Source: Tardiphaga sp. (GTDB lineage Bacteria > Pseudomonadota > Alphaproteobacteria > Rhizobiales > Xanthobacteraceae). Taken from it: DNA of 64,000 bases. Numbering within the stretch: position 1 is the first letter of the stretch; every line of letters starts with the position of its first letter. The stretch lies in contig NZ_JAQGJT010000138.1 of assembly GCF_028290495.1 (NCBI RefSeq), positions 1-64,000 of the forward strand. The letters are read 5' to 3'. Both the position numbers and the translations under genes were made by a program. Positions 32,250 through 46,328 of this stretch are shown here, piece by piece. The notes beneath the pieces are model-generated. The model was not told the origin of the DNA. It did no database searches and worked only from the letters and a program-made list of their open reading frames with translations.

Positions 32250-34412
32250 TTACAGCAGGCCCGCGCCGCGTGCCCACTTGTACTTGGCGCCGAGCACTTC
32301 CACCGGAAGCTCGGTCGAATAGGCATAAGACGGGATGCCGTTCTGGTAGAGATATTCGGCGGCCTCCTCGACCTCGACGTCGCCGGCGAGCGAGGCCACC
32401 ATCGGCTTCTCGATGCCCTTGGCCTTCATCTCGTTCTTGATCTCGACCATGTTGCGCGCGAACACCATCGGCGGGGTGACGATGGTGTGCCAGTAGCCGA
32501 GGATCAGCGAATGCACGCGGTCGTCGGTGAGGCCGAGCTTCACGGTGTTGACATAGGTGATCGGCGGCTCGCCGCCGGTGATGTCGACGGGGTTGCCGGC
32601 CGCGCCGAACGGCGGGATGAACTTGCGGAAGGCCGCATCGAGATCCGGCGGCATGGTCATCAGCGACATGCCGTTGTCGACCACCGCATCCGACAGCAGA
32701 ACGCCCGAACCACCGGCGCCGGTGATGATCAGCACGTTCTCGCCCTTCGGCGTCGGCAGCACTGGAATGCCGCGGGCAAACTCCAGCAACTGGCGCAGCG
32801 AACGGGCGCGGATCACGCCGGACTGCTTCAGCACGTCCTCATAGATCTTGTCGTTGCCGGCGAGCGCGCCGGTGTGCGACGACGCCGCCTTGGCGCCGGC
32901 CGAGGTGCGGCCGGCCTTGAGCACGACCACCGGCTTGATCTTGGAGACGCGCTTGGCGGCTACGGCGAAGGCGCGGCCGTCCTTCAGATCCTCGCAATGC
33001 TGCGCGATGATGTTGGTGTTAGGGTCCTGCTCGAAGAAGGCGAGCAGATCGTCCTCGTCGATGTCCGACTTGTTGCCGAGGCCGACGATGGCCGAGACGC
33101 CCATCTTGGCCGAGCGCGAGAAGCCGATGATCGCCATGCCGATGCCGCCGGACTGCGACGACAGAGCCGCCGAACCTTTCACGTCATAGGCGGTGCAGAA
33201 CGTCGCGCAGAGATTGGCCGGCGTGTAATAGAAGCCATAGATGTTCGGCCCCATCAGGCGGACGTCGTACTTCTTGCCGATCTCGACGATCTCTTCCTGC
33301 AGCGCCGGCTCGTTGGCTTCGGCAAATCCCGACGGGATCAGCACGGCGCCGGGAATTTTCTTCTCGCCGCATTCGATCAGTGCACCGGCAACGAACTTGG
33401 CGGGAATCGCGAACACCGCGGTGTCAATCACGCCCGGAACGTCCTTGACGCTCTTGTAGGCCTTGCGGCCCATGATCTCGGTGGCCTTGGGGTGGATCGG
33501 ATAGATCTCGCCCTTGTAGCCGCCGTTGATCAGGTTCTTCATCACCGAATTGCCGATCTTGCCGTCCTCGGCGGAGGCGCCGATCACGGCGACCGCCTGC
33601 GGCATCATGATGCGGTTCATCGCGGTGACGATTTCGGCGTTGGAGCGCGGCGCCGGGCGCGGCTTGTAGTCGAAGTCGACGACGATGCGCACGTCGGCGG
33701 CGATCGCATCCTTCTTGGTCGCGAATACCGGGTTGAGATCGAGCTCGACCATTTCCGGGAAGTCGCTGACCAGTTCGGAAACCTTGACGATGATATCGGC
33801 CAGCGCCTCGCGGTTGGCCGGGTCGCCGCCGCGCACGCCATGCAGCATTTCGGCTGCCTGAATGCCGTCGAGCATCGACAGCGCGTCGTCATTGGTGGCG
33901 GGGGCGAGACGGAAGGTCACATCCTTCAGCACTTCGACCAGCACGCCGCCGAGGCCGAAGGCCACCAGCTTGCCGAACGAACCGTCGGTGATCGAACCGA
34001 TGATCACCTCGGTGCCGCCCATCAGCATCTGCTGGACCTGGATGCCCTCGATCTTGGCATCGGCCTTATAGTTCTTGGCGTTGGCCAGAATGGTGTCGTA
34101 GGCCTTCAGCGCTTCGTCAGCGGACTTGACGCCGACAATGACGCCGCCGGCTTCGGTCTTGTGCAGGATATCCGGCGAGACGATCTTCATCACCACCGGA
34201 AAGCCCATGCCTTCGGCCATCTTGGCGGCTTCGGCAGCGGATTTCGCCACGCCTTCACCGGGCACCGGAATGCCGTAGGCGTCGCAGACCAGCTTGCCTT
34301 CCGGCGCGGTCAAGCTGGTGCGGCCGTCGGCTTTGACGGCGTCGAGAACTTTGCGAACGGTTTCTTTCGCGGACGGCGCGGCAACCTGCTTGGCGAGATT
34401 CGTTGGGGACAT
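32250..34412 (-). CDS. ADP-forming acyl-CoA synthetase (acetate-CoA ligase family), oxalate island
   Basis: 720 residues, well placed after AAGGAGAGGAAG. An ATP-grasp half comes first (about 30-265: VCDAYGIPVPGEGVAKSAAEAAKMAEGMGFPVVMKIVSPDILHKTEAGG). A CoA-binding domain follows (about 280-400: MMPQAVAVIGASAEDGKIGNSVMKNLI), then succinyl-CoA-ligase-like domains. The phosphohistidine is probably in AKAASSHTGALAGND. The domain order is beta-alpha, the reverse of the usual acetate-CoA ligase fusion. The reaction would be acid + CoA + ATP to acyl-CoA + ADP. It diverges from gntR-oxc-frc through a region with two copies of the island operator. Activation of oxalate or formate, or recovery of CoA-ester energy, are reasonable inferences. 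Confidence 0.88.
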   Translation of the reverse strand: MSPTNLAKQVAAPSAKETVRKVLDAVKADGRTSLTAPEGKLVCDAYGIPVPGEGVAKSAAEAAKMAEGMGFPVVMKIVSPDILHKTEAGGVIVGVKSADEALKAYDTILANAKNYKADAKIEGIQVQQMLMGGTEVIIGSITDGSFGKLVAFGLGGVLVEVLKDVTFRLAPATNDDALSMLDGIQAAEMLHGVRGGDPANREALADIIVKVSELVSDFPEMVELDLNPVFATKKDAIAADVRIVVDFDYKPRPAPRSNAEIVTAMNRIMMPQAVAVIGASAEDGKIGNSVMKNLINGGYKGEIYPIHPKATEIMGRKAYKSVKDVPGVIDTAVFAIPAKFVAGALIECGEKKIPGAVLIPSGFAEANEPALQEEIVEIGKKYDVRLMGPNIYGFYYTPANLCATFCTAYDVKGSAALSSQSGGIGMAIIGFSRSAKMGVSAIVGLGNKSDIDEDDLLAFFEQDPNTNIIAQHCEDLKDGRAFAVAAKRVSKIKPVVVLKAGRTSAGAKAASSHTGALAGNDKIYEDVLKQSGVIRARSLRQLLEFARGIPVLPTPKGENVLIITGAGGSGVLLSDAVVDNGMSLMTMPPDLDAAFRKFIPPFGAAGNPVDITGGEPPITYVNTVKLGLTDDRVHSLILGYWHTIVTPPMVFARNMVEIKNEMKAKGIEKPMVASLAGDVEVEEAAEYLYQNGIPSYAYSTELPVEVLGAKYKWARGAGLL

Positions 34413-34455
34413 GGCTTCCTCTCCTTGACGTCTGTTTCAGTCGAGACGTGATTGA

Positions 34456-34472
34456 TGGCATTTGGTATGCCA
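34456..34472. promoter_or_regulatory. Oxalate-island operator, site A
   Basis: TGGCATTTGGTATGCCA, a perfect TGGCAT-N5-ATGCCA palindrome 44 bases upstream of the ligase start. It is one of seven 17-bp sites with the same geometry found only in this island. Confidence 0.75.
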
Positions 34473-34536
34473 GAAACAGGCTTGTCAAGGCGGTGCGCAC
34501 TGCACAATTGCCGAAATCGCCGGAAGCTTGACACCG

Positions 34537-34553
34537 TGGTATTTGGTATGCCA
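34537..34553. promoter_or_regulatory. Oxalate-island operator, site B
   Basis: TGGTATTTGGTATGCCA lies 55 bases upstream of the gntR start, 81 bases from site A. Together the two sites would let one regulator control both divergent units, including its own gene. Confidence 0.75.
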
Positions 34554-34607
34554 AAAATCTGGCACTATTTATTCTGTTATAGGAACGTCTCCCGATGGAG
34601 ATGATTC

Positions 34608-35363
34608 ATGCCCGCTCGAAAACCAACCAAGGCGCGGACAACAATGGCTGAGGCAGATATCGCGATCGTCCGGATCGCGCCCGAGACGAGTTTCAAGAAC
34701 AAGGCCTACGATGCCTTGAAAGAAGCCATTCTCAAAATGGATATCTACACCACCGCCGATCCGGTGATGCTCGACGAGCGCGCTTTGTCGGAACGCCTCG
34801 GCGTCAGCCGCACGCCGATCCGCGAAGCGATCGCGATGCTGGAACAGGATGGTTTCGTCAAGACGATGCCGCGCCGGGGCATCGTGGTAGTCAGACGGAC
34901 CAAGGTCGAGATCGTCGACATGATCCGCGCATGGGCGGCGCTGGAAAGCATGGCCGCGCGGCTGATCACGACGACCGCGCGCAAGAAGGACATCTCGGCG
35001 CTGCGCGACTTCTTCAAGGATTTCGGCAAGGACCGGCTACCGCAGGATCACGTCGAGGAATATTCCAAAGCCAACATCGCTTTCCACCAGGCGCTGATCT
35101 CGCTCAGCGAATCGCCGGTGCTGGTCGACATGACCAACGACATTCTTCTGCATGTGCGCGGGTACCGGCAGCTCACGATCGGTCGCACCGACCGCACCGC
35201 GACCTCCCTGCCCGAGCATCTGGCGATCATCGAGGCGCTCGAGGAGCGCAACACCGAACTGGCGGAAAAGCGCGCGCGCGATCACACGCTGGGGCTGGCG
35301 GCCTATGTCGAGGCCCACGGCCAGGAGCTGTTCACCAAGCCTTCCGACATCAAGGCTTCCTGA
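34608..35363 (+). CDS. GntR-family regulator (FadR/FCD type), probable regulator of the oxalate island
   Basis: 251 residues from ATG 34608, with GGAG 8 bases upstream; an internal ATG at 34644 is also possible. The N-terminal winged helix has LDERALSERLGVSRTPIREAIAMLEQDGFVKTMPRRGIVVV, about residues 50-100. The FCD ligand domain follows, with candidate metal or ligand His in IAFHQALISLSESPVL and LPEHLAIIEAL. FCD regulators bind short-acid effectors. It is the first gene before oxc and frc and lies under operator site B. FadR-type proteins recognise TGGT...ACCA-like palindromes, matching the seven sites here. Oxalate, oxalyl-CoA or formyl-CoA as effector is a guess. Confidence 0.9.
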   Translation: MPARKPTKARTTMAEADIAIVRIAPETSFKNKAYDALKEAILKMDIYTTADPVMLDERALSERLGVSRTPIREAIAMLEQDGFVKTMPRRGIVVVRRTKVEIVDMIRAWAALESMAARLITTTARKKDISALRDFFKDFGKDRLPQDHVEEYSKANIAFHQALISLSESPVLVDMTNDILLHVRGYRQLTIGRTDRTATSLPEHLAIIEALEERNTELAEKRARDHTLGLAAYVEAHGQELFTKPSDIKAS

Positions 35364-35442
35364 AAGAAGCCCACCGATTTCGTATCCACGCACACGCTGA
35401 CAACAACACGTCGCATCAAAAAAAGTACAGGGAGAACGCGGA

Positions 35443-37185
35443 ATGTCCGCTACGGTTCAGAGCATTGCAGTCGCCGCCCCGGAAGTTGAGCAGGACCTGA
35501 CGGATGGCTTTCATCTGATCATCGACGCGCTCAAGCTGAACGGCCTCAACACGATCTACGGCGTGCCGGGCATCCCGATCACCGACTTCGGCCGCATGGC
35601 GCAGGCCGAGGGTATCCGCGTGCTCTCGTTCCGCCATGAACAGGCCGCCGGCTATGCCGCCTCGATCGCCGGCTACCTCACCAAGAAGCCCGGCGTCTGC
35701 CTGACGGTGTCGGCACCCGGCTTCCTCAACGGCCTCACCGCGCTGGCGCATGCCACCACCAACTGCTTCCCGATGATCCTGATCTCCGGTTCGTCGGAGC
35801 GCGAGATCGTCGATCTGCAGCAGGGCGACTATGAGGAGATGGACCAGCTCGCGATCGCCAAGCCGCTGTGCAAGGCCGCGTTCCGCGTGCTGCACGCCGC
35901 CGACATCGGCATTGCGGTGGCCCGCGCGATCCGCGCCGCAGTGTCCGGCCGTCCGGGCGGCGTCTACCTCGATCTGCCCGCCAAACTGTTCGGCCAGGTG
36001 ATGGACGCCGGCCTCGGCCAGAAGTCGCTGGTCAAGGTGATCGACGCCGCGCCGGCGCAGATCCCCGGACCGGATTCGATCAAGCGCGCGCTCGACGTGC
36101 TGAAGGGCGCCAAGCGCCCATTGATCATTCTCGGCAAGGGCGCGGCCTACGCGCAGGCCGACGACGCCATCAAGGCGCTGGTCGAGACCTCCGGCATTCC
36201 GTTCCTGCCGATGAGCATGGCCAAGGGCCTGCTGCCCGACACCCATCCGCAATGCGCGGGTGCGGCGCGCTCGACGGTGCTGAAGGACGCCGACGTGGTG
36301 ATGCTGATCGGCGCCCGCCTGAACTGGCTGCTGTCGCACGGCAAGGGCAAGAGCTGGGGCGATACGCCCAAGAAGTTCATCCAGATCGACATCGAGCCGA
36401 AGGAAATGGACTCCAACGTCGAGATCGTCGCGCCCGTGGTCGGCGATATCGGCTCCTGCGTCGCGGCCCTCCTCGATGGCATCGGCAAGGGCTGGACGAA
36501 GCCGTCCACCGACTGGACCGGCGCCATCACCAAGAAGCGCGACGACAACATTTCGAAAATGGCGCCGCGCCTGATGAACAACAACTCGCCGATGGATTAC
36601 CACGGCGCGCTCGGCGTGCTGCGCACCATCATCGCAGAACGTCCCGATGCCATGCTGGTGAATGAAGGCGCCAACACGCTCGATCTCGCCCGCGGCATTA
36701 TCGACATGTACAAGCCGCGCAAGCGCATCGATGTCGGCACCTGGGGCATCATGGGCATCGGCATGGGCTACTGCATCGCCGCCGCCATCGAGACCGGCAA
36801 ACCGGTGCTCGCGGTGGAAGGCGACAGCGCGTTCGGCTTCTCCGGCATGGAGGTCGAAACCATCTGCCGCTACAATCTGCCGGTCTGCATCGTCGTCTTC
36901 AACAATGACGGCATCTACCGCGGCACCGACGTCAATCCGACCGGCGGCGAGGACGTGGCCCCGACCGTGTTCGTCAAGGGCGCGCGCTACGACAAGATGA
37001 TGGAGGCCTTCGGCGGCGTCGGCGTCAACGTGACTTCGCCGGACGAACTCAAGCGCGCCGTCAACAACGCCATGGATTCGGGCAAGCCGACGCTGATCAA
37101 TGCGGTGATCGACCCGGCCGCCGGCAGCGAGAGCGGCCGCATCGGCAACCTCAATCCGCAGAGCGTGCTGAAAAAGAAGAAATAA
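35443..37185 (+). CDS. oxc: Oxalyl-CoA decarboxylase
   Basis: 580 residues, after CAGGGAGAACGCGG. A ThDP enzyme: the N-terminal domain has [17 protein letters not shown] and the catalytic Glu in [12 protein letters not shown] near residue 68. The central domain has [15 protein letters not shown], and the C-terminal ThDP/Mg motif runs from [19 protein letters not shown] to [11 protein letters not shown]. It splits oxalyl-CoA to formyl-CoA and CO2. With Frc it forms the classic oxalate catabolic cycle. It lies 79 bases after gntR without an operator copy between, so it is probably cotranscribed with it. Confidence 0.96.
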
Positions 37186-37196
37186 TCTGTTTCAAC

Positions 37197-37218
37197 GACG
37201 GGGTCGCAAGGCCCCGTC
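37197..37218 (+). other. Hairpin between oxc and frc
   Basis: GACGGGG-TCGCAAGG-CCCCGTC lies 11 bases after the oxc stop. The run after it is mixed pyrimidine (CCTGTTCTTTCT), so it may cause partial termination or stabilise the oxc message. Confidence 0.5.
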
Positions 37219-37265
37219 CCTGTTCTTTCTGCCCGCGCGGCAACCATAGACTACGGAGCAAGACC

Positions 37266-38543
37266 ATGACACAGGCGCTGAAGGGCGTTCGCATTCTCGA
37301 TTTCACCCACGTCCAGTCCGGACCTACCTGCACGCAGCTGCTGGCGTGGTTTGGCGCCGACGTGATCAAGGTCGAGCGACCGGGCGTCGGTGACATCACC
37401 CGCGGCCAGTTGCAGGATATCCCCAACGTCGACAGCCTGTATTTCACCATGCTGAACCACAACAAGCGCTCGATCACGCTCGACACCAAGAACCCCAAGG
37501 GCAAGGAAGTGCTGATCGCGCTGATGAAGTCCTGCGACGTGCTGGTCGAGAACTTCGGCCCCGGCGTGCTCGACCGTATGGGCTTCTCGTTCGAGAAGAT
37601 CCAGGAGATCAACCCGAAACTGATCGTCGCTTCGATCAAGGGCTTTGGCCCCGGTCCCTATGAGGACTGCAAGGTCTACGAGAACGTCGCGCAGTGCACC
37701 GGTGGTGCAGCCTCGACCACCGGCTTCCGCGACGGCCTGCCGCTGGTCACCGGCGCGCAGATCGGCGACAGCGGCACCGGCCTGCATCTGGCGCTCGGCA
37801 TCGTCACCGCGCTCTATCAGCGCACCGTCACCGGCCGCGGCCAGAAGGTCACCGCCGCCATGCAGGACGGCGTGCTGAATCTCTCGCGCGTAAAACTGCG
37901 CGACCAGCAGCGCCTCGCGCATGGCCCGCTCAAGGAATACAGCCAGTTCGGCGAAGGCATTCCGTTCGGCGACGCCGTGCCGCGCGCCGGCAACGATTCC
38001 GGCGGTGGCCAGCCCGGCCGCATCCTGAAGTGCAAGGGCTGGGAGACCGACCCCAACGCCTACATCTACTTCATCACCCAGGCGCCGGTGTGGGAGAAGA
38101 TCTGCGACGTGATCGGCGAACCCACCTGGAAGACCGACCCGGCCTACTCGAAGCCCGCGGTGCGGCTGCCCAAGCTCAACGAGATCTTCGCGCGCATCGA
38201 ACAGTGGACGATGACCAAGACCAAGTTCGAGGCGATGGACATCCTGAATGAAGATGACATCCCGTGCGGCCCGATCCTGTCGATGAAGGAACTCGCCGAG
38301 GACCAGTCGCTGCGCGCGACCGGCACCGTGGTCGAGGTCGACCATCCCGAGCGCGGCAAGTACCTCTCGGTCGGCAACCCGATCAAGATGTCCGATAGCC
38401 CGACCGAAGTGACCCGCTCGCCGCTGCTCGGCGAGCACACCGACGAGATCCTGCGCCAGGTGCTCGGCTTCAGCGACCACCAAGTTGCCGAAATCCACGA
38501 CTCCGGCGCTCTCGATCCGCCGCGTAAGGTGGCCGCGGAGTAA
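37266..38543 (+). CDS. frc: Formyl-CoA:oxalate CoA-transferase (class III)
   Basis: 425 residues, the normal length. It starts [35 protein letters not shown]. The catalytic Asp is in AQIGDSGTG (Asp168, equivalent to Asp169 of the Oxalobacter enzyme). The active-site glycine loop is NDSGGGQPG, and the terminal motif is [12 protein letters not shown]. It moves CoA from formyl-CoA to oxalate, regenerating oxalyl-CoA for Oxc and releasing formate. Residue 48 is Gln; from memory the Oxalobacter enzyme has Trp there. It is followed by a strong terminator, closing the gntR-oxc-frc unit. Confidence 0.96.
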
Positions 38544-38572
38544 GCGAACGCCATATTGGCTTTGACATCACA

Positions 38573-38599
38573 GGCCGCCGGTATCCCCGGCGGCCTTTT
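38573..38599 (+). terminator. Intrinsic terminator after frc
   Basis: GGCCGCCGG-TATCC-CCGGCGGCC followed by TTTT, 30 bases past the frc stop. Confidence 0.88.
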
Positions 38600-38685
38600 G
38601 CGTGGAACTTTGATAAGAAAATCAAATCGATTGATTTTGCACTGCAAAAAATTTCATGCTGCCATGCAAACAAACGCATTGTTGG

Positions 38686-38702
38686 TGGCATCTGGTATAC
38701 GT
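38686..38702. promoter_or_regulatory. Oxalate-island operator, site C
   Basis: TGGCATCTGGTATACGT has the full left arm and the first four bases of the right arm (ATAC) in the same 17-bp geometry. It lies 54 bases upstream of the small gene at 38756. It is the weakest of the seven sites. Confidence 0.6.
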
Positions 38703-38755
38703 AGATTAGCCCTCAGACGAACACGGCGCCCCGGCGCCAAACTGAGGGATCGATC

Positions 38756-38893
38756 ATGTCCAACACTGCTTCGCTCGGCCTCACGCCTTCCACCACTCTG
38801 TTCAGCCGCCTGATGGCGCAGATCGACCGCCTGCTGATGAGCAGCGCCCGGATCTCGGTACGCAATGCCGACCTGCCCTATTTCGGTCTTTGA
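38756..38893 (+). CDS. 45-residue small protein under the oxalate-island operator
   Basis: ATG at 38756 has GAGGGA 6 bases upstream. The product is basic in the middle and amphipathic, containing LFSRLMAQIDRLLMSSARIS and ending VRNADLPYFGL. No cysteine, signal peptide or membrane span. I know of similar short Bradyrhizobium proteins ending in RNxDLPxFGL, but no function. The gene has its own operator-like site and its own terminator, between frc and the tct operon. It is therefore a stand-alone transcription unit and a plausible small regulator or RNA-coding locus. The same transcript could instead act as an sRNA. Confidence 0.7.
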   Translation: MSNTASLGLTPSTTLFSRLMAQIDRLLMSSARISVRNADLPYFGL

Positions 38894-38949
38894 TCAACGG
38901 ATTATCTGACGACGCGTGACCGCGTCATCAGACTGTTTCCTCCCAGACT

Positions 38950-38980
38950 GGCCCCGGATTTTTCCGGGGCCATTTTTTTT
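38950..38980 (+). terminator. Strong intrinsic terminator after the small gene
   Basis: GGCCCCGG-ATTTTT-CCGGGGCC followed by A and eight T. A second stem (TGACGACGCG / CGCGTCATCA, near 38907-38930) precedes it. The rest of 38981-39365 holds operator site D and a long leader before tctC, with no supported gene. Confidence 0.92.
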
Positions 38981-39054
38981 GCGCGCATAGGGATTGTTTC
39001 CGCCTGCGGCATTTCAGCCCGTCCCGCGTTTAACTACTCTAACCGCTTGCGGCT

Positions 39055-39071
39055 TGGCATATCGCATACCA
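39055..39071. promoter_or_regulatory. Oxalate-island operator, site D
   Basis: TGGCATATCGCATACCA, flanked by a further T/A pair, is about 295 bases upstream of tctC. The long distance implies either a long leader or an unrecognised short transcript. Confidence 0.7.
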
Positions 39072-39365
39072 AAGTGAGCGCTAGGTAATGCTTCGCGTTT
39101 AAATGAAAGCATACCTGGGAGGATGATGGCCGACAGACCCGCACAGGGCTGCTGCCGCAATTGCCATGATGCAAGCACCCGACCTCACATTTTCGCCGAT
39201 TGGCCGAACAGCTAACTTGTTCGGCAGAATACTCCACTCCAAGCTGGACTGCGACGACGCGCCTCTGCGCTCGCCGCCTCGCTTACCAAAGGAATTCCTT
39301 CGCTAGTACACCACGATTGAAAGTCGACGCACGATCGACGCGATCAAAACGAATGGGAGAGAAAC

Positions 39366-40376
39366 ATGAAACGTTCTGCCTCTTGTCTCGCGATTGGCGC
39401 CGTCGCGTCATGCCTGGCGACGATTGCCGGCCCGGCCGTTGCGGCCTGGGAGCCGGTACGCCCGGTGGAATTCGTCATCCCGGCCGGCACAGGCGGCGGC
39501 GCAGACCAGATGGCGCGCACCATTCAGGGCATCGTCACCAAGCACAATCTGATGAAGCAGCCACTCGTCGTGATCAACAAGTCGGGCGGCGCCGGCGGCG
39601 AAGGCTTCCTCGACCTCAAGACCGCCAACAACAATCCGCACAAGATCATCATCACGCTGTCGAACCTGTTCACGACGCCGCTCGCCACCGGCATTCCGTT
39701 CAACTGGAAAGACCTCACGCCCGTCGCGATGCTGGCGCTCGACGAGTTCGTGCTCTGGGTCAATGCCGACAAGCCGTACAAGGACACCAAGGAATTCATC
39801 GCAGCCGTGAAGGCCGCACCGGCCGGCTCGATCAAGATGGGCGGCACCGGCTCGAAGCAGGAAGACCAGATCATCACCGTCGCCTTCGAAAAGGCCATCG
39901 GCAGCAAGCTCACCTATATCCCGTACAAGGGCGGCGGCGAAGTCGCGGTGCAGCTGGTCGGCAACCACGTCGATGCCACCGTGAACAATCCGATCGAGGC
40001 CGTCGCACAGTGGCGCGGCGGCAAGGTGCGTCCGCTTTGCGTGTTCGACAGCAAGCCGATGAACTATGACGAGCAGGTCGCCGACGGCAAGGCGTGGAAG
40101 GACATTCCGACCTGCAAGTCGCAGGGGCTCGACATCGAATATGTCATGCTGCGCGGCATCTTCATGTCGCCCAAGGCGACCAAGGACCAGGTCGAATATT
40201 ACGTCGAACTGTTCAAGAAGATCCGTGCCACGCCGGAGTGGCAGGACCTGATGAAGAACGGCGCCTTCAACACCACCTTCATGACCGGCGGCGACTATTC
40301 CGGCTGGGTCGAGAAGGAAGAGAAGCGTCACGAGACGCTGATGAAGGAAGCCGGCTTCCTCGCACAAGGTAACTGA
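39366..40376 (+). CDS. tctC: Tripartite tricarboxylate transporter substrate-binding protein
   Basis: 336 residues, after GGGAGAGAAAC. The signal peptide ends around VASCLATIAGPAVAA. The mature TctC/Bug fold starts WEPVRPVEFVIPAGTGGGADQMARTIQGIV and includes VINKSGGAGGEGFLDLK and MGGTGSKQEDQIITVAFEKAIG. It binds a carboxylate in the periplasm for the TctA/TctB permease. Its place under the island operator suggests oxalate or a related C2-C4 acid rather than citrate, which is inference. The TTT family is rarely linked to oxalate. Confidence 0.93.
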   Translation: MKRSASCLAIGAVASCLATIAGPAVAAWEPVRPVEFVIPAGTGGGADQMARTIQGIVTKHNLMKQPLVVINKSGGAGGEGFLDLKTANNNPHKIIITLSNLFTTPLATGIPFNWKDLTPVAMLALDEFVLWVNADKPYKDTKEFIAAVKAAPAGSIKMGGTGSKQEDQIITVAFEKAIGSKLTYIPYKGGGEVAVQLVGNHVDATVNNPIEAVAQWRGGKVRPLCVFDSKPMNYDEQVADGKAWKDIPTCKSQGLDIEYVMLRGIFMSPKATKDQVEYYVELFKKIRATPEWQDLMKNGAFNTTFMTGGDYSGWVEKEEKRHETLMKEAGFLAQGN

Positions 40377-40506
40377 TCAGCACCACTGATCGAGACGTAC
40401 TGATCGTTCCGCGAACATCCCCGGCGCCTGGCAATGGCCAGGCCCGGGCAGCCACACGATTTCAAGACTTTCGATTCAAGCCTCAGATTCAAGACCTGGA
40501 GTTTCC

Positions 40507-41004
40507 ATGACAGCGCAACATTCACGCAATGCAGGCCCGACTCACAAGGCCGTCGAATCCGGCGTCACTCTGGTGATCGGCCTGTTCGGCGCCATCGTCG
40601 TGTACGGCAGCGTCAAGGCCGGCATCAACTGGGGCGCGGAAGGCCCGCGCGCCGGCTTCTTCCCGTTCTATGTCGGGCTCTTCATCATCGTGTCCAGCGC
40701 CATCAATCTCTGGAACACGAGGCGCGACGAGGACAGCAGCCTGTTCGCCGAATGGGGTCAATTGCGTCAGGTCTTCAGCGTCGTGATCCCGACCGCCATC
40801 TATGTCGCGTCGATGCCGTTCATCGGCCTGTATTTGGCCTCGATGATCTTCATCGGCTGGTTCATGCGCTGGCTCGGCAAGTACGAATGGCCGCTGATCG
40901 CCGGCATCGCGCTCGGCATGCCGATCGTCACCTATTTCATCTTTGAACGCTGGTTCCTGGTGCCGTTGCCCAAGGGACCGATCGAGGACTGGCTCGGTCT
41001 GTAA
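40507..41004 (+). CDS. tctB: Tripartite tricarboxylate transporter small membrane subunit
   Basis: 165 residues, after CCTGGAG. Four predicted hydrophobic segments (GVTLVIGLFGAIVVYGSV, GFFPFYVGLFIIVSSAINLW, VVIPTAIYVASMPFIGLYLASMIFIGWFM, PLIAGIALGMPIVTYFIFERW) match the TctB family. It lies between tctC and tctA with 130- and 35-base spacers. Confidence 0.9.
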   Translation: MTAQHSRNAGPTHKAVESGVTLVIGLFGAIVVYGSVKAGINWGAEGPRAGFFPFYVGLFIIVSSAINLWNTRRDEDSSLFAEWGQLRQVFSVVIPTAIYVASMPFIGLYLASMIFIGWFMRWLGKYEWPLIAGIALGMPIVTYFIFERWFLVPLPKGPIEDWLGL

Positions 41005-41039
41005 CAAGCGTCTGCATAAGTTTTCGGGGGAAATTCGAT

Positions 41040-42551
41040 ATGGAAGAAATCGCCAATCTGTTCCAGGGCTTCGCCGTCGCCCTGCAACCGTTCAATATCG
41101 CCGTGATGATCCTGGGCATTGTGCTCGGCGTGGTGATCGGCGTGTTGCCGGGGCTCGGCGGCGCCAACGGCGTGGCCATCCTGCTGCCGCTGACCTTCAG
41201 CATGCCGCCGACCTCGGCGATCATCATGCTGTCCTGTATCTACTGGGGCGCGTTGTTCGGAGGTGCGATCACCTCGATCCTGTTCAACATACCGGGCGAA
41301 CCCTGGTCGGTGGCGACGACCTTCGACGGTTATCCGATGGCCCAGCAGGGCAAGGCCGCCGAAGCACTCACCGCTGCCTTCACCTCCTCCTTCGTCGGCG
41401 CGCTGTTCGCCGTGATCATGATCACGCTGGTGGCGCCGCTGGTGGCGAGCTTCGCGCTACAATTCGGGCCTGCGGAGAAATTCGCGGTCTACTTCCTCGC
41501 CTTCTGCAGTTTCGTCGGGCTAAGCAAGGAGCCACCGTTCAAGACCATTGCGGCGATGATGATCGGCTTCGCGCTGGCCGCCGTCGGCCTCGACTCCATC
41601 ACCGGCCAGTTGCGTCTGACCTTCGGCTCGCACGAACTGCTCAACGGCTTCGACTTCCTGATCGCCGTCATCGGCCTGTTCGGCCTCGGCGAAATCTTCC
41701 TGACGATGGAGGAAGGTCTCAGCTTCCCCGGCGGCAAGGCCAAGATCGACCTGCGCATCGTGCTCAAGACCTGGAAGTCGCTGCCGCGCTACTGGATGAC
41801 GTCGCTGCGCTCCTGCGTGATCGGCTGCTGGATGGGCATCACGCCGGCCGGCGCCACGCCCGCCTCGTTCATGAGCTACGGCATCGCCAAGCGTGTCTCG
41901 AAACAAGGCCACAATTTCGGCAAGGGCGAGATCGAGGGCGTGATCGCGCCGGAGACCGCCGCACACGCCGCCGGCACCGCGGCCTTGCTGCCGATGCTGT
42001 CGCTCGGCGTGCCGGGCTCGCCGACCGCAGCGGTGCTGCTCGGCGGGTTGCTGATCTGGGGTCTGCAGCCCGGCCCTATGCTGTTCGTCGAGCAGAAGGA
42101 GTTCGTCTGGGGCCTGATCGCCTCGATGTATCTCGGCAACCTCGTCGGCCTGATCGTGGTGCTGACCTGCGTGCCGCTGTTCGCCGCGATCCTGCGGGTG
42201 CCGTTCAGCATCATCGCGCCGCTGATCCTGGTGCTGTGCGCGATCGGCGCCTACTCGGTCCACAACTCGACCTTCGACGTGGTGATGATGCTGGTATTCG
42301 GCCTGATCGGCTACGCGCTGAAGAAGTGCAACTATCCCCTCGCGCCCCTGGTGCTGGCGATCGTGCTGGGCGACAAGGCGGAGGAAGCGTTCCGGCAATC
42401 GCTGCTGGGATCGCAGGGCTCGCTCGGCATATTCTTCTCCAACACGCTGGTCAGCTCGATCATGATCCTCGGCCTGATCGCTCTGTTCTGGTCGGTGATC
42501 CAGAACGGTATTTCGCGGCTGCGGACGACGACGCCTCAGGCCGCCGGGTAG
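41040..42551 (+). CDS. tctA: Tripartite tricarboxylate transporter large membrane subunit
   Basis: 503 residues, after GGGGGAAA. TctA signatures are GVLPGLGGANGVAILLPLTFSMPPTSAIIMLSCIYWGALFGGAITSILFNIPGEP near the N-terminus and GVPGSPTAAVLLGGLLIWGLQPGP in the middle. Many membrane helices. It forms the channel of the secondary transporter. A strong terminator follows. Confidence 0.93.
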   Translation: MEEIANLFQGFAVALQPFNIAVMILGIVLGVVIGVLPGLGGANGVAILLPLTFSMPPTSAIIMLSCIYWGALFGGAITSILFNIPGEPWSVATTFDGYPMAQQGKAAEALTAAFTSSFVGALFAVIMITLVAPLVASFALQFGPAEKFAVYFLAFCSFVGLSKEPPFKTIAAMMIGFALAAVGLDSITGQLRLTFGSHELLNGFDFLIAVIGLFGLGEIFLTMEEGLSFPGGKAKIDLRIVLKTWKSLPRYWMTSLRSCVIGCWMGITPAGATPASFMSYGIAKRVSKQGHNFGKGEIEGVIAPETAAHAAGTAALLPMLSLGVPGSPTAAVLLGGLLIWGLQPGPMLFVEQKEFVWGLIASMYLGNLVGLIVVLTCVPLFAAILRVPFSIIAPLILVLCAIGAYSVHNSTFDVVMMLVFGLIGYALKKCNYPLAPLVLAIVLGDKAEEAFRQSLLGSQGSLGIFFSNTLVSSIMILGLIALFWSVIQNGISRLRTTTPQAAG

Positions 42552-42575
42552 CACTGCTACACTCCTCCAGGTACA

Positions 42576-42607
42576 AAGCCGGCGGTTGATCCGCCGGCTT
42601 TTCTTTT
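42576..42607 (+). terminator. Intrinsic terminator after tctA
   Basis: AAGCCGGCGG-TTGAT-CCGCCGGCTT followed by TTCTTTT, 25 bases past the tctA stop. Confidence 0.9.
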
Positions 42608-42673
42608 GCGCAATGCTGCAGTACAGCGAGCGCAACATTACTGCGACAAACTGGCAAAATTTCGCTTGTCTAC

Positions 42674-42690
42674 TGGCATATCATATACCA
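42674..42690. promoter_or_regulatory. Oxalate-island operator, site E
   Basis: TGGCATATCATATACCA lies 53 bases upstream of the first MFS gene. Same 17-bp geometry as the other sites. Confidence 0.75.
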
Positions 42691-42742
42691 AACTACCCGA
42701 AGTAGCGCTGCAAAAAACAGAATGGCGCCTCGGGAGAAAACT

Positions 42743-44032
42743 ATGACGGATGCAGTTCACGGAGCGACTCCGGCGGCCGCGCGGGTAAGTGACGCGTATC
42801 GCTGGACCCAATTGGCCATCGGCGTCGGCGCGATGGTGATGATTGCCAACTACCAATATGGCTGGACGTTCTTCGTCCCCGATATTCAGAAAAAATTCGG
42901 CTGGGACCGCGCCTCGATCCAATGAGCGTTCACGCTGTTCGTGCTGTTCGAGACCTGGCTGGTGCCGATCGAAGGCTGGTTTGTCGATAAATACGGCCCG
43001 AAGCTGGTCGTGCTGGTCGGCGGAATCCTGTGCGGCATCGGCTGGGCGATCAACGCGCAGGCTGAGACGCTAAACGGCTTTTACCTCGGCATGATCGTGG
43101 CGGGCATCGGCGCCGGCGGCGTCTACGGCACCTGCGTCGGCAACGCGCTGAAGTGGTTTCCCGACAAGCGCGGCCTAGCGGCCGGCATCACCGCCGCCGG
43201 CTTCGGCGCCGGCTCCGCGCTGACCGTGGCGCCGATCCAGGCGATGATCGCAGGCTCGGGCTTCCAGACTACCTTCCTGTACTTCGGTCTCGGCCAGGGC
43301 CTGATCATCGTGATCCTCGCCTTCTTCCTGTTTTCGCCCAAGCCCGGCCAGGTGCCGGCCGTCACTGTGAACGCCAATGTGATCCAGACCCGCCGCAACT
43401 ACGCCCCGACCGAAGTGATCCGCCATCCGATCTTCTGGCTGATGTACTTCATGTTCGTGATCGTCGGTGCCGGCGGCCTGATGGTGACGGCGAATCTGAA
43501 GCCGATCGCCGCCGACTGGAAGATCGACAACGTGCCGGTCACCTTGATGGCCATGACGATGACGGCCGTGACTTTCGCCGCCACCATCGACCGCGTCCTC
43601 AACGGTCTGACCCGGCCGTTCTTCGGCTGGATCTCCGACCAGATCGGCCGTGAGAACACCATGTTCATCGCCTTCGGCATGGAAGGCGTCGGCATCTATT
43701 TGCTGTACATGTGGGGCCACGATCCGCTGTGGTTCGTGCTGCTCTCCGGCTTCGTGTTCTTTGCATGGGGCGAGATCTACTCACTGTTCCCCTCGACCTG
43801 CACCGACACGTTCGGCTCGAAGTTCGCCACCACCAATGCCGGCCTGCTCTACACCGCGAAGGGCACGGCAGCGCTGCTGGTGCCGGTCGCGAACTACATG
43901 CAGCAGTCGTCGGGGACATGGGACAACGTGTTCCTGATCGCCGCCGGCGCCAACATCCTGGCCTCGCTGCTGGCGCTGTTCGTGCTCAAGCCGTGGCGCA
44001 AATCGGTGGTCAGCAAGGCGCTGGCCGCCTAG
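42743..44032 (+). pseudogene. OxlT-like oxalate/formate MFS antiporter interrupted by one in-frame TGA
   Basis: Translation from ATG 42743, after CGGGAG, gives VSDAYRWTQLAIGVGAMVMIANYQYGWTFFVPDIQKKFGWDRASIQ and then TGA at 42923-42925. The same frame continues without another stop as AFTLFVLFETWLVPIEGWFVDKYG to a normal C-terminus at 44032. The intact neighbour has IQLAFTLFVVVETWLV at this point. One base change (TGG to TGA) from a Trp codon would explain the break. Everything else, including ribosome site, operator and terminator, looks maintained. It may be a recent nonsense mutation, a sequencing error, or a readthrough/reinitiation case (GTG at 42941). Confidence 0.85.
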
Positions 44033-44055
44033 ACTGCAACTCACGCACCTCCATG

Positions 44056-44087
44056 AACGCCCGGCCGAAAGGTCGGGCGTTTCTTTT
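44056..44087 (+). terminator. Intrinsic terminator after the first MFS gene
   Basis: AACGCCCG / CGGGCGTT around a GCCGAAAGGT loop, followed by TCTTTTT, about 24 bases past the stop. Confidence 0.88.
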
Positions 44088-44227
44088 TGCGGATACGTCG
44101 CCGAAAGGTGCGCTCCTGACAGGCAACATCCGGGAGGGATCGGGGTAAGCGCGCTGCGCCCCGGCACTACGGTCGCGCGCGCCATGCTGCGCCGCATCAT
44201 AACTAAGTCCAAGACGGGCTTGCGTAG

Positions 44228-44244
44228 TGGAATATAATATACCA
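44228..44244. promoter_or_regulatory. Oxalate-island operator, site F
   Basis: TGGAATATAATATACCA lies 83 bases upstream of the second MFS gene. The left arm has A where others have C or T. Confidence 0.7.
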
Positions 44245-44326
44245 GTCTCCGCCGGCGACGCTTGCGACAATAAGTCACAACCTTGCGGCAATACGCCGCG
44301 AAAAGAAGCGCGCAACGGGAGGTCTT

Positions 44327-45637
44327 ATGATTTCACAAACCGACGCGACTACACCCACCATTTCAGGCAACTTCCGCTGGATCCAGCTTGTCATGGGCAT
44401 CGTCTGCATGGCGATGATCGCCAACCTGCAATACGGCTGGACGCTGTTCGTCGATCCGATCGACGCCAAGTATCATTGGGGCCGTGCCGCGATCCAGCTG
44501 GCCTTCACCCTGTTCGTCGTCGTCGAAACCTGGCTGGTGCCGGTCGAGGCCTGGTTCGTTGACAAGTATGGTCCGCGCGCCGTCATCATGTTTGGCGGCG
44601 TGATGATCACCCTGGCATGGATCCTGAACTCCTATGCCGACTCGCTGGCCATGCTCTACGCTGGCGCGATCATCGGCGGCATCGGCGCCGGTTCCGTCTA
44701 CGGCACCTGTGACGGCAATGCGCTCAAGTGGTTTCCGGACCGGCGCGGTCTCGCCGCCGGCGCCACCGCCGCCGGCTTTGGCGCGGGCGCTGCGATCACC
44801 GTCGTGCCGATCGCCAACATGATCGCCGCCAGCGGCTACCAGCACGCCTTCTTCACCTTCGGCATCGGCCAGGGGGTCATCGTCTTCATCCTCGCATTCT
44901 TCATGCGCAAGCCGCTGCATGCGATGCCGGCGAAGAAGAAGCAACTCCACCTTCCGCAGACCAGGATCGACTTCACCCCGCCGCAAGTGCTGCGTACTCC
45001 GATCTTCTGGGTGATGTATCTGGTGTTCGTGATGGTCGCCGCAGGCGGTCTGATGACTGCGGCTCAGATCGCGCCGATCGCCAAGGACTTCAAGATCGAC
45101 AATGTCCCGGTCAGCCTGCTCGGCTTCCAGATGGCCGCACTCACCTTCGCGATCTCGCTCGACCGGATTTTCGACGGCTTCGGCCGACCGATCTTCGGCT
45201 GGGTGTCCGACACGATCGGTCGCGAATACACCATGTTCATCGCCTTCGGAACCGCAGCCGTGATGCTGCTGATACTGTCTGCCTACGGCAACAATCCCGT
45301 CGTCTTCGTGCTGGCGACCGCGGTTTATTTCGGCGTATTCGGCGAAATCTACAGTCTGTTCCCGGCGACATCAGGCGACACCTTCGGCGCCAAGTATGCG
45401 GCCACCAACAACGGCATGCTGTACACCGCCAAGGGCACGGCAGCGTTGCTCGTGCCGGTGGCGAGCCTCATAGCCGCACACTACGGCTGGCAGGCGGTGT
45501 TCGTGATCGCCGTCGTGTTGAATGCCACCGCGGCGTTGCTGGCGCTGTTCGTGATCAAGCCGATGCGACGCAGCTTCATTTTCGGCAACGAGGCTCAGTC
45601 GGCAGATACCGCCGCGGCAAGTGCAAAGACGGCGTAA
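44327..45637 (+). CDS. OxlT-like oxalate/formate MFS antiporter (intact paralogue)
   Basis: 436 residues, after AACGGGAGG. Twelve likely membrane helices; the first is WIQLVMGIVCMAMIANLQYGWTLFV. MFS loop motifs are VDKYGPRAVIMFGG and WVSDTIGREYTMF, with YGTCDGNALKWFPDRRGLAAGATAAGFGAGAA in helices 4-5. Oxalate:formate exchangers import oxalate dianion and export the formate made by Frc/Oxc. Closely related in sequence to the interrupted gene just upstream, indicating tandem duplication. It has its own operator and terminator. Confidence 0.9.
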   Translation: MISQTDATTPTISGNFRWIQLVMGIVCMAMIANLQYGWTLFVDPIDAKYHWGRAAIQLAFTLFVVVETWLVPVEAWFVDKYGPRAVIMFGGVMITLAWILNSYADSLAMLYAGAIIGGIGAGSVYGTCDGNALKWFPDRRGLAAGATAAGFGAGAAITVVPIANMIAASGYQHAFFTFGIGQGVIVFILAFFMRKPLHAMPAKKKQLHLPQTRIDFTPPQVLRTPIFWVMYLVFVMVAAGGLMTAAQIAPIAKDFKIDNVPVSLLGFQMAALTFAISLDRIFDGFGRPIFGWVSDTIGREYTMFIAFGTAAVMLLILSAYGNNPVVFVLATAVYFGVFGEIYSLFPATSGDTFGAKYAATNNGMLYTAKGTAALLVPVASLIAAHYGWQAVFVIAVVLNATAALLALFVIKPMRRSFIFGNEAQSADTAAASAKTA

Positions 45638-45654
45638 CGATCCGTTTTTCGGCC

Positions 45655-45684
45655 AAGGGGCGCATTGCAATGCGCCCCTTTTTC
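45655..45684 (+). terminator. Intrinsic terminator after the second MFS gene
   Basis: A perfect 26-bp palindrome, AAGGGGCGCATTG and its complement, is followed by a T-run, 17 bases past the stop. Confidence 0.9.
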
Positions 45685-45826
45685 TTGCCCTGATCTGGCA
45701 TGCCAGAGACGCCGTGAAGGCGATATTCGCACCAAGGCAGTAACCGCCGTTGCGCGATAAAGTCAGAAATACTGACACTTAATTGCCGATTTAGTGCCAA
45801 CGACGACGTTGACAGTTGGCATAACG

Positions 45827-45843
45827 TATACCAGTATTAGGAC
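45827..45843. promoter_or_regulatory. Oxalate-island operator, site G
   Basis: TGGCATAACGTATACCA lies 54 bases upstream of the CBS-pair gene. This is the last island site to the right. Confidence 0.75.
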
Positions 45844-45896
45844 AATAACAGTCCTGAACCCAGGGACTTTACACCACTGACGCCAGGGAGGCTGCC

Positions 45897-46328
45897 ATGA
45901 AAGTCGGAGACGTTCTGCGCAACAAGAGCACCCGCATCGCCACGGTCCGCATGAATGAAACGGTCGCGATCGCCGCCCAGTTACTGCGTGCCGGCAATAT
46001 CAGTGCCCTCGTCGTCAAGGATGTCTGCCGGACAGAAGGCAATACCGCGGTCGGCATGTTCTCGGAGCGCGACGTGGTGCGTGCGGTCGCCGAACATGGC
46101 GCGGCCGGCCTCGCCCTCAAAGTATCCAACCTGATCTCGGTGCAGCAGCTGATCTCCTGCCACTCCAGCGACACGCTCGAACACGTTCGCCATCTCATGA
46201 ACAAGAACCACATCCGGCACGTGCCGGTGATCGACGAGTACACCCTGATCGGCGTCGTCAGCATCCGGGACATCAGCACCGCGCTCGAGCATGACGATAT
46301 CGAGGCGAAAGAGTCCGCGGTCGCCTGA
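45897..46328 (+). CDS. CBS-pair protein in the oxalate regulon
   Basis: 143 residues, after CAGGGAGG. Two CBS domains: about 8-65 (STRIATVRMNETVAIAAQLLRAGNISALVVKD, then GMFSERDVVRAVAEHG) and about 78-135 (LISCHSSDTLEHVRHLMNKNHIRHVPVIDEYTLIGVVSIRDI). No other domain, no signal. Such stand-alone CBS pairs bind adenosyl ligands (AMP, ATP, NADH, SAM) and act as small allosteric partners. The upstream island operator ties it to oxalate use. It may sense energy or CoA status while oxalate is being burned. Partner unknown. Confidence 0.88.
   Translation: MKVGDVLRNKSTRIATVRMNETVAIAAQLLRAGNISALVVKDVCRTEGNTAVGMFSERDVVRAVAEHGAAGLALKVSNLISVQQLISCHSSDTLEHVRHLMNKNHIRHVPVIDEYTLIGVVSIRDISTALEHDDIEAKESAVA

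Follow-up and report, generated by a model that had tools for sequence, protein, structure and literature searches.

The DNA analysed here, hereafter the window, is the whole stretch of 64,000 nucleotides at positions 1 to 64,000 of contig NZ_JAQGJT010000138.1 from Tardiphaga sp. (assembly GCF_028290495.1), a member of the family Xanthobacteraceae. Its oxalate island, which spans 32250-46328, consists of a divergent acyl-coenzyme A (acyl-CoA) ligase gene, gntR-oxc-frc, a gene for a protein of 45 amino acids (aa), tctCBA, two antiporter genes and a CBS-domain gene, and seven copies of a 17-bp palindrome, TGGYAT-N5-ATRCCA, lie between these genes. We consider it quite probable, judging from comparison of related sequences, that the palindrome is the operator of a GntR repressor with an FCD domain encoded at 34608, and that this repressor controls the island together with recruited sucCD and formate dehydrogenase genes. 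The positions of the sites, their conservation, their phasing to promoter-like elements and their linkage to particular genes are all direct observations. The seven predicted operator sites, scored against TGGYATN5ATRCCA with up to two mismatches allowed, are as follows.

34456..34472, minus strand: before the nucleoside diphosphate (NDP)-forming acyl-CoA ligase gene, divergent with gntR; exact.
34537..34553, plus strand: before gntR-oxc-frc; exact, with a -35-like CTTGACA ending 3 nt upstream.
38686..38702, plus strand: diverged site before the 45-aa gene; two mismatches.
39055..39071, plus strand: 294 bp before tctC; exact.
42674..42690, plus strand: before the gene for MFS antiporter 1 (MFS1); exact.
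44228..44244, plus strand: before the gene for MFS antiporter 2 (MFS2); one mismatch, left arm TGGAAT.
45817..45833, plus strand: before the CBS gene; exact.

An earlier note on this DNA had described a seven-copy 17-bp palindrome in the oxalate island, and the description is borne out; six of its coordinates are right, and the last site, which it placed at 45827, starts at 45817. It was also right that 38686 has a diverged right arm (both mismatches fall there), that all seven sites are intergenic, in a window of which only 17% is intergenic, and that the window holds no further copy, which is true at zero or one mismatch to TGGYAT-N5-ATRCCA. The stated distance of 44-83 bases to the next start for most sites fits six promoters (gaps of 43 bp for the ligase, 54 for gntR, 53 for the 45-aa gene, 52 for MFS1, 82 for MFS2 and 63 for CBS), the exception being tctC at 294 bp. 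Full TGGNAT-N5-ATNCCA arms are found at six of the seven sites, and the window has no such word outside the island; in 200 shuffled versions that kept its dinucleotide composition, such words numbered 0.045 on average and never more than one. This excess, together with the intergenic position of all seven sites, excludes chance. The looser pattern behaves differently: with up to two mismatches there are three more matches outside the island (1439, 12151 and 56648), and the resulting count carries no significance because 4.3 window matches are expected by chance and 10 were reached in 2 of 100 shuffles. Chance was accordingly rejected, by the shuffles and by reversed-pattern controls, as the source of the strict sites, and accepted for most matches with one or two mismatches. 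Two half-sites without a spacer, TGGCATGCCA, also occur at 45696-45705, shortly 3' of the MFS2 gene.

The operator before gntR is exact in all 80 related loci from Tardiphaga, Bradyrhizobium or near relatives, and in 11 of 11 close loci from the wider family (taken from 10 genomes; L331 was left out, its upstream sequence being too short). The window GntR is 97% identical to that of a Tardiphaga sp. In 80/80 relatives the ligase-gntR gap has a pair of sites with exact arms, lying no more than 200 bp from the operator of gntR. A conserved operator before the regulator's own gene is what an autoregulated local regulon would show. The operator recurs at the tctC, antiporter and CBS promoters despite differing gene content and order. 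Scored against TGGYAT-N5-ATRCCA with the window included, the tctC sites comprise 22 exact and 9 with one mismatch (n = 31 loci) and the CBS sites 21 exact and 2 with one mismatch (n = 23 loci). The pooled antiporter sites comprise 29 exact, 14 with one mismatch and one failing, among 44 distinct sites, since the MFS1 and MFS2 groups overlap by 24 sites at which one antiporter was matched by both queries. The sites before the 45-aa gene are weaker, with one or two mismatches in 38 of the 38 loci scored and never exact. At greater distance, an exact or one-mismatch site precedes gntR in 4/19 family loci at 47-57% GntR identity (the four being exact), in 4/4 further loci and in 13/17 scored loci of other alphaproteobacterial families, as compared with 0.5-2.5% in shuffles. 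Such GntR genes were found in 19 of 289 genomes of a class-wide sample at E ≤ 1e-60, own genome included.

Outside the window, the same genome (a 5.77 Mb draft in 231 contigs) has exact arms at eight places: the six in the island, C212:12005, which lies between mdh and sucC and 52 bp upstream of the sucC start, and C67:14932. The last (C67:14932-14948, L007) reads TGGCATCGGTGATACCA, falls near the start of a 104-aa open reading frame without obvious oxalate link, and is probably due to chance. Up to one mismatch being allowed, the pattern matches at 81 places (reversed control, 22); it is thus common in this loose form, and the strict form alone carries information. One such one-mismatch site elsewhere in the genome is C21:64252. 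The whole-genome scan that the earlier note had proposed as a check therefore turned out in its favour, the strict motif being neither common nor unlinked to oxalate genes. Strict sites number 57 across nine Tardiphaga genomes, where the reversed control yields 2; by hand-sorting, 49 of these lie on the island contigs, before sucC or before formate dehydrogenase, or share the word of such a site (for G003, G007 and G008 the sucC-type sites were placed by their word alone), and 8 lie elsewhere, unexplained. In fifteen Bradyrhizobium genomes there are 92 strict sites against 5 in the control, and these were placed only among the matches listed.

The presence of strict sites follows that of the regulator. 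Among 60 other genomes of the family, summed by hand, the 11 with a GntR at least 78% identical hold 48 strict sites (control 1), the 41 with only a 45-57% GntR relative hold 31 (control 9), and the 8 with no GntR match at E ≤ 1e-30 hold 1 (control 1). Among the island genes traced, gntR is the one regulator gene, and rearranged islands keep it together with the operator. Its product belongs to the FadR/FCD subfamily, with PF00392 at 46.5 bits (cut-off 27) and PF07729 at 79.1 bits (cut-off 24.3), and scores below every listed NCBIfam cut-off (phnR_burk, NanR, CsiR, LldR, GlcC and others), the best being TIGR03338 with 92.8 against 271.5 bits. The metal site of FCD domains consists of Asp/Asn-x3-His and two more His. 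In the 35 GntR sequences compared, N156, H160, H204 and H226, which correspond to these residues, are invariant, as are H182, R184 and R187; we take this N-x3-H, two-His and H-x-R-x-x-R pattern to be compatible with an FCD metal/carboxylate pocket, and a small acid or its CoA ester would therefore be a sensible inducer. That the 34608 protein is the natural reader, as had been suggested, is well supported by the comparison (91/91 close loci, the co-occurrence, and a sub-clade described below), and the FCD-type GntR is the best candidate reader.

The sites keep a fixed phase to promoter-like elements. A TTG exactly 5 nt upstream and a T at +4 downstream of the operator occur at 43/43 distinct antiporter sites and 23/23 CBS sites, and at tctC the TTG is found at 5 nt in 25/31 and the T at +4 in 29/31; in the antiporter set no TTG is found at any other offset from 0 to 19. 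The resulting layout, TTGNNN-17-CANNNT, has the operator filling a -35/-10-like spacer at the tctC, antiporter and CBS promoters. At gntR, the CTTGACA lies 3 nt before the operator, and its TTG keeps the same phase in all 81 loci, the window among them. At the formate dehydrogenase promoter, the left arm itself forms a -35 TTGGCA, with TANNNT downstream, in 13/21 loci. This phasing fits the promoter-overlapping repression that the earlier note had in mind, as far as it can be read from the letters.

The regulon had first been described as an oxalate island alone; its island genes stand, and the list was too small, missing sucCD and formate dehydrogenase. When loci were fetched by sucC and not by the motif, an exact operator was found to start 67-78 bp before sucC in 27 of the 30 highest-scoring Bradyrhizobium loci from 61 genomes, and in both Tardiphaga loci; four more Tardiphaga genomes with this site were fetched by the motif. 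Among the best sucC loci of a wider family sample, the operator is present in 3/30 (two Tardiphaga, one Bradyrhizobium). In 30 exact-operator sucC loci, identity reaches 90% or more in all five free columns of the spacer, compared with 6 of 90 flank columns; these loci were preselected for an exact operator, so the arm columns there prove nothing. Inheritance alone was rejected as the cause of the sucC site, the flanks having diverged while the spacer was kept, and second sucCD copies also having operators. The three misses in Bradyrhizobium are G119, G086 and G114. In G119 and G086, operators precede a second sucC (adjoining an antiporter gene in G119), and in G037, G028 and G071 a second sucCD with a one-mismatch operator lies inside the island; in all five genomes the best-match, housekeeping sucC is without an operator. 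Operators of second or island sucCD copies are mostly of the one-mismatch kind, and an exact one precedes a SucC-type gene in G010 and G050. In G010, from another family, formate dehydrogenase, sucCD-like genes and tctCBA are clustered together, and the divergent gap of this cluster contains two operators. The SucC-like genes of G010 and G050 pass the cut-off for succinate-CoA ligase beta (430 and 373 against 370 bits); malate-CoA ligase was rejected for them, the scores being below the MtkA cut-off (386 and 321 against 604 bits). In Tardiphaga and most of the Bradyrhizobium loci read, the housekeeping sucCD is thus the copy with the operator, and in several genomes with a second sucCD the operator is at that copy and absent from the housekeeping one; SucCD is thereby predicted to supply priming succinyl-CoA. 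Two genomes of distant genera, G043 and G022, have an exact TGGTAT-N5-ATACCA directly before sucC and mdh, respectively (L256 1501-1517; L258 1501-1517), with a 46-50% identical GntR elsewhere in the genome.

Another operator that recurs outside the island is found in front of a gene for a NuoE/NuoF-like fusion. The fusion is probably the diaphorase part of a nicotinamide adenine dinucleotide (NAD)-type formate dehydrogenase, as its domains and context suggest; it scores 40.1 bits with the formate dehydrogenase gamma model NF004638 (cut-off 198), and the name is given with no equivalog cut-off reached. The gene upstream of that operator encodes an OxlT-like transporter at some loci; at another it is moeA. 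The candidate formate dehydrogenase is present in 21 of 33 chosen genomes at E ≤ 1e-150, and the operators at those 21 loci comprise 14 exact, 3 with one mismatch and 4 with two. Both Tardiphaga genomes that have the enzyme, G003 and G006, carry an exact operator.

Several observations weigh against this interpretation. Before gntR, 15 of the 19 family loci at 47-57% GntR identity are without an exact or one-mismatch site, and the excess of strict sites over the control in the 41 mid-identity genomes is modest (31 against 9). At nine oxc-adjoining GntR loci (50-56% identity; L185-L192 and L198) the gntR promoter has no such operator and bears a different palindrome common to them, ATACWGTACACWGTAT or a near variant (eight by a scan with one mismatch allowed, L186 by eye). 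Use of the 17-bp operator is thus not obligatory for oxalate GntR genes; we read this sub-clade as one in which reader and operator would have changed together. Among the sucC loci examined, those of G052, G058, G017, G062, G040 and G114 have no operator although these genomes have a close GntR, and a sucC gene in or near the island is without a detectable operator in G055 and G034 and in the sub-clade islands of G069, G053, G072 and G030. The window's genome and seven of nine other Tardiphaga genomes searched gave no formate dehydrogenase match at E ≤ 1e-150. The inferred -10 element, CANNNT, matches poorly the TTG-N16-18-TATA promoters described for Bradyrhizobium (B. japonicum) in the relevant part of PMC4842269, which leaves room for activation. 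In the portion of PMC3720670 that deals with them, YfdE and UctC, which are enzymes other than the Frc and ligase found here, made no use of succinyl-CoA with oxalate; a CoA-donor role of SucCD would therefore depend on Frc or the ligase accepting succinyl-CoA.

The sucC and formate dehydrogenase sites could be real and yet belong to another regulator with a similar site, leaving the island alone as the regulon. We regard this as unlikely, though deserving of some weight: several genomes with a close GntR are without a sucC site and tricarboxylic acid cycle genes could be targets of other FCD regulators, whereas oxalate clusters of several genera have an operator-bearing second sucCD next to or within them, and G010 unites formate dehydrogenase, sucCD-like genes and tctCBA under two operators. 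That the same GntR and operator act by activation, or in both directions, seems to us unlikely as well, and slightly more so. Some FadR-type regulators activate, the operator differs in its phase to the -35-like TTG between gntR or sucC and the antiporter or CBS promoters, and the inferred -10 is weak; set against this, the operator fills the -35/-10-like spacer at tctC, the antiporters and CBS and covers the -35 at formate dehydrogenase, positions that normally block polymerase.

There is a small chance that some other regulator reads the palindrome and that gntR is merely one of its targets, given that a first look finds up to dozens of GntR-like candidates per family genome. GntR is, however, the one regulator among the island genes traced and keeps the operator through rearrangement, the operator stands before gntR in 91/91 close loci, and genomes without the gene have no more strict sites than the control. 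A promoter class read by a sigma factor, TTG-N5-TGGCAT-N5-ATACCA-N3-T, in place of a repressor operator would also suit the constant phase seen at antiporter and CBS promoters and at most tctC ones, but this is highly improbable in view of the twofold symmetry, the other phasing at gntR and formate dehydrogenase, the two copies in the ligase-gntR gap and the tie between the word and one regulator gene.

Under repression by GntR, which we infer along with its binding and its ligand, a GntR dimer would bind half-sites centred 11 bp apart, about one helical turn. Without substrate, the dimer would sit in the core promoter of each unit and exclude RNA polymerase; a metabolite of the oxalate pathway (oxalate, oxalyl-CoA or formyl-CoA) would bind the FCD domain and cause release. 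The units for import (tctCBA and both MFS antiporters), for activation with CoA (Frc, acyl-CoA ligase) and for decarboxylation (Oxc) would then be expressed together with the CBS protein, the 45-aa protein and the regulator itself. The CoA donor for the first charging of oxalate, while formyl-CoA is still absent, would come from SucCD, and in many relatives a candidate NAD-type formate dehydrogenase would convert formate to CO2 and NADH. The priming problem is described in PMC3720670, where the passage concerned adds that organisms with a promiscuous Frc may need no separate priming enzyme.

The genes of the island are listed below; Oxc and Frc equivalogs are both above cut-off, as expected of an oxalate catabolic pathway.

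32250..34412, minus strand: fused NDP-forming acyl-CoA ligase (ATP-grasp_5, CoA_binding_2, Succ_CoA_lig, Ligase_CoA_2).
34608..35363, plus strand: proposed reader, a 251-aa regulator of the GntR family carrying an FCD domain (both PF00392 and PF07729 exceed their cut-offs).
35443..37185, plus strand: oxc, oxalyl-CoA decarboxylase (TIGR03254, 1022.7 bits; cut-off 739.4).
37266..38543, plus strand: frc, formyl-CoA transferase (TIGR03253, 742.2 bits; cut-off 504.2).
38756..38893, plus strand: conserved 45-aa orphan protein (no Pfam match at E ≤ 1).
39366..42551, plus strand: tctC-tctB-tctA, tripartite tricarboxylate-type transporter (PF03401, PF07331, PF01970).
42743..44032, plus strand: MFS oxalate/formate antiporter 1, broken (TIGR04259, 568 bits after the stop; cut-off 335).
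44327..45637, plus strand: MFS oxalate/formate antiporter 2 (TIGR04259, 639.5 bits; cut-off 335).
45897..46328, plus strand: protein with two CBS domains (PF00571).

The fused ligase reaches no NCBIfam cut-off. The orphan protein with its own weaker operator has the same length of 45 aa in the window and in 46 relatives among the matches listed, typically with MSKTAS at its N-terminus and RNGDLPxFGL at its C-terminus. The tctC leader (39072-39365) has a short conserved patch, GCggATGccgC, and otherwise little conservation, and in relatives some 270-330 bp separate the operator from tctC; a known RNA element in this 294-bp leader was rejected, there being no Rfam match at the gathering threshold. 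Antiporter 1 has an in-frame stop at codon 61 (42923-42925) in this genome, which the earlier note had missed, and of 34 frames with the same gene in fetched loci, some of them perhaps counted twice, 31 are open for at least 410 aa. In several islands (L178:10020, L323:1099-2781, L344:17-1441), the oxc slot is taken by a thiamine diphosphate (TPP) enzyme 25-26% identical to Oxc, which adjoins frc in L178 and L323; its best models, acetolactate synthase and 2-hydroxyacyl-CoA lyase, are below cut-off, and the pathway of these islands may be a different one. The three alphaproteobacterial genomes of L344-L346 are small, at 1.4 Mb and 94-99% completeness; in them a 37-38% identical GntR adjoins tctA, and TGGTATAATGTATACCA, an exact operator, stands where the TPP enzyme gene starts.

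Operators of the FadR subfamily are characterised, in the main text of Suvorova et al. 2015 (PMC4494728), as palindromes with TKGT/ACMA boxes in which GT and AC lie 2-3 nt apart. The island and its relatives resemble that subfamily in wHTH_GntR and FCD domains, TGGY half-sites, palindromic symmetry, a site at the regulator's own gene and two sites in a divergent gap. The arms TGGY/RCCA match, but GT and AC are 9 nt apart at the conserved sites, which makes this a wide 17-mer site and not a canonical FadR-type one, a point that the earlier note had missed. Some sites contain an inner TGGTATGCCA with 2-nt spacing, which is not conserved at other promoters. The same source gives direct repeats of TGGTATAW for NanR, whose half-site TGGTAT is shared, and gntR-class sites hold an extra inner TGGTAT that creates a 7-bp direct repeat; the conserved arrangement here is instead an inverted repeat with a 5-bp spacer, and the NanR model is a weak second-best for the regulator, at 63 bits against a cut-off of 260. 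The word oxalate is absent from that main text.

Escherichia coli yfdXWUVE, as presented in the relevant part of PMC3720670, likewise has oxc and frc homologues under one regulator; EvgA, however, is an activating acid-response regulator and not an FCD repressor, and E. coli primes by acetyl-CoA:oxalate CoA-transferase and not by sucCD. Bradyrhizobium diazoefficiens has the same oxc-frc pathway, with Frc and Oxc more abundant on arabinose (PMC5996035); the relevant passages of that article name no oxalate regulator or operator, and GntR is absent from its text. PMC5987411, in which oxalate, GntR, formyl-CoA and transcriptional regulator all occur, was rejected as a precedent, GntR being merely counted among regulator families in the passage concerned. 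The motif core TGGTATACCA led, among the matches listed, to no paper on bacterial regulation by title. A GntR-type oxalate regulon was not found in the literature among the matches listed, RegPrecise, supplements and subscription journals being outside its scope, and the only oxalate regulator met in that literature is EvgA of E. coli. The oxalate pathway of B. diazoefficiens was reportedly treated by Koch et al. in 2014.

Oxalate consumption is an important soil carbon flux and a trait of legume symbionts. A defined operator offers a promoter set for reporters and oxalate biosensors and a candidate ligand screen, and the wide operator would extend the recognition range attributed to FCD-type GntR proteins. 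Succinyl-CoA synthetase is predicted to be an oxalate-induced enzyme. SucCD would fill a gap in organisms that have no priming enzyme of their own, for which the starter step has been left open. We give about an even chance to the broadest form of this proposal, in which one FCD repressor with a wide operator would define a pathway-wide oxalate regulon, from uptake to NADH and including the 45-aa orphan, in several alphaproteobacterial families, and would rewire sucCD, as the housekeeping copy or as a second copy instead, for succinyl-CoA priming.

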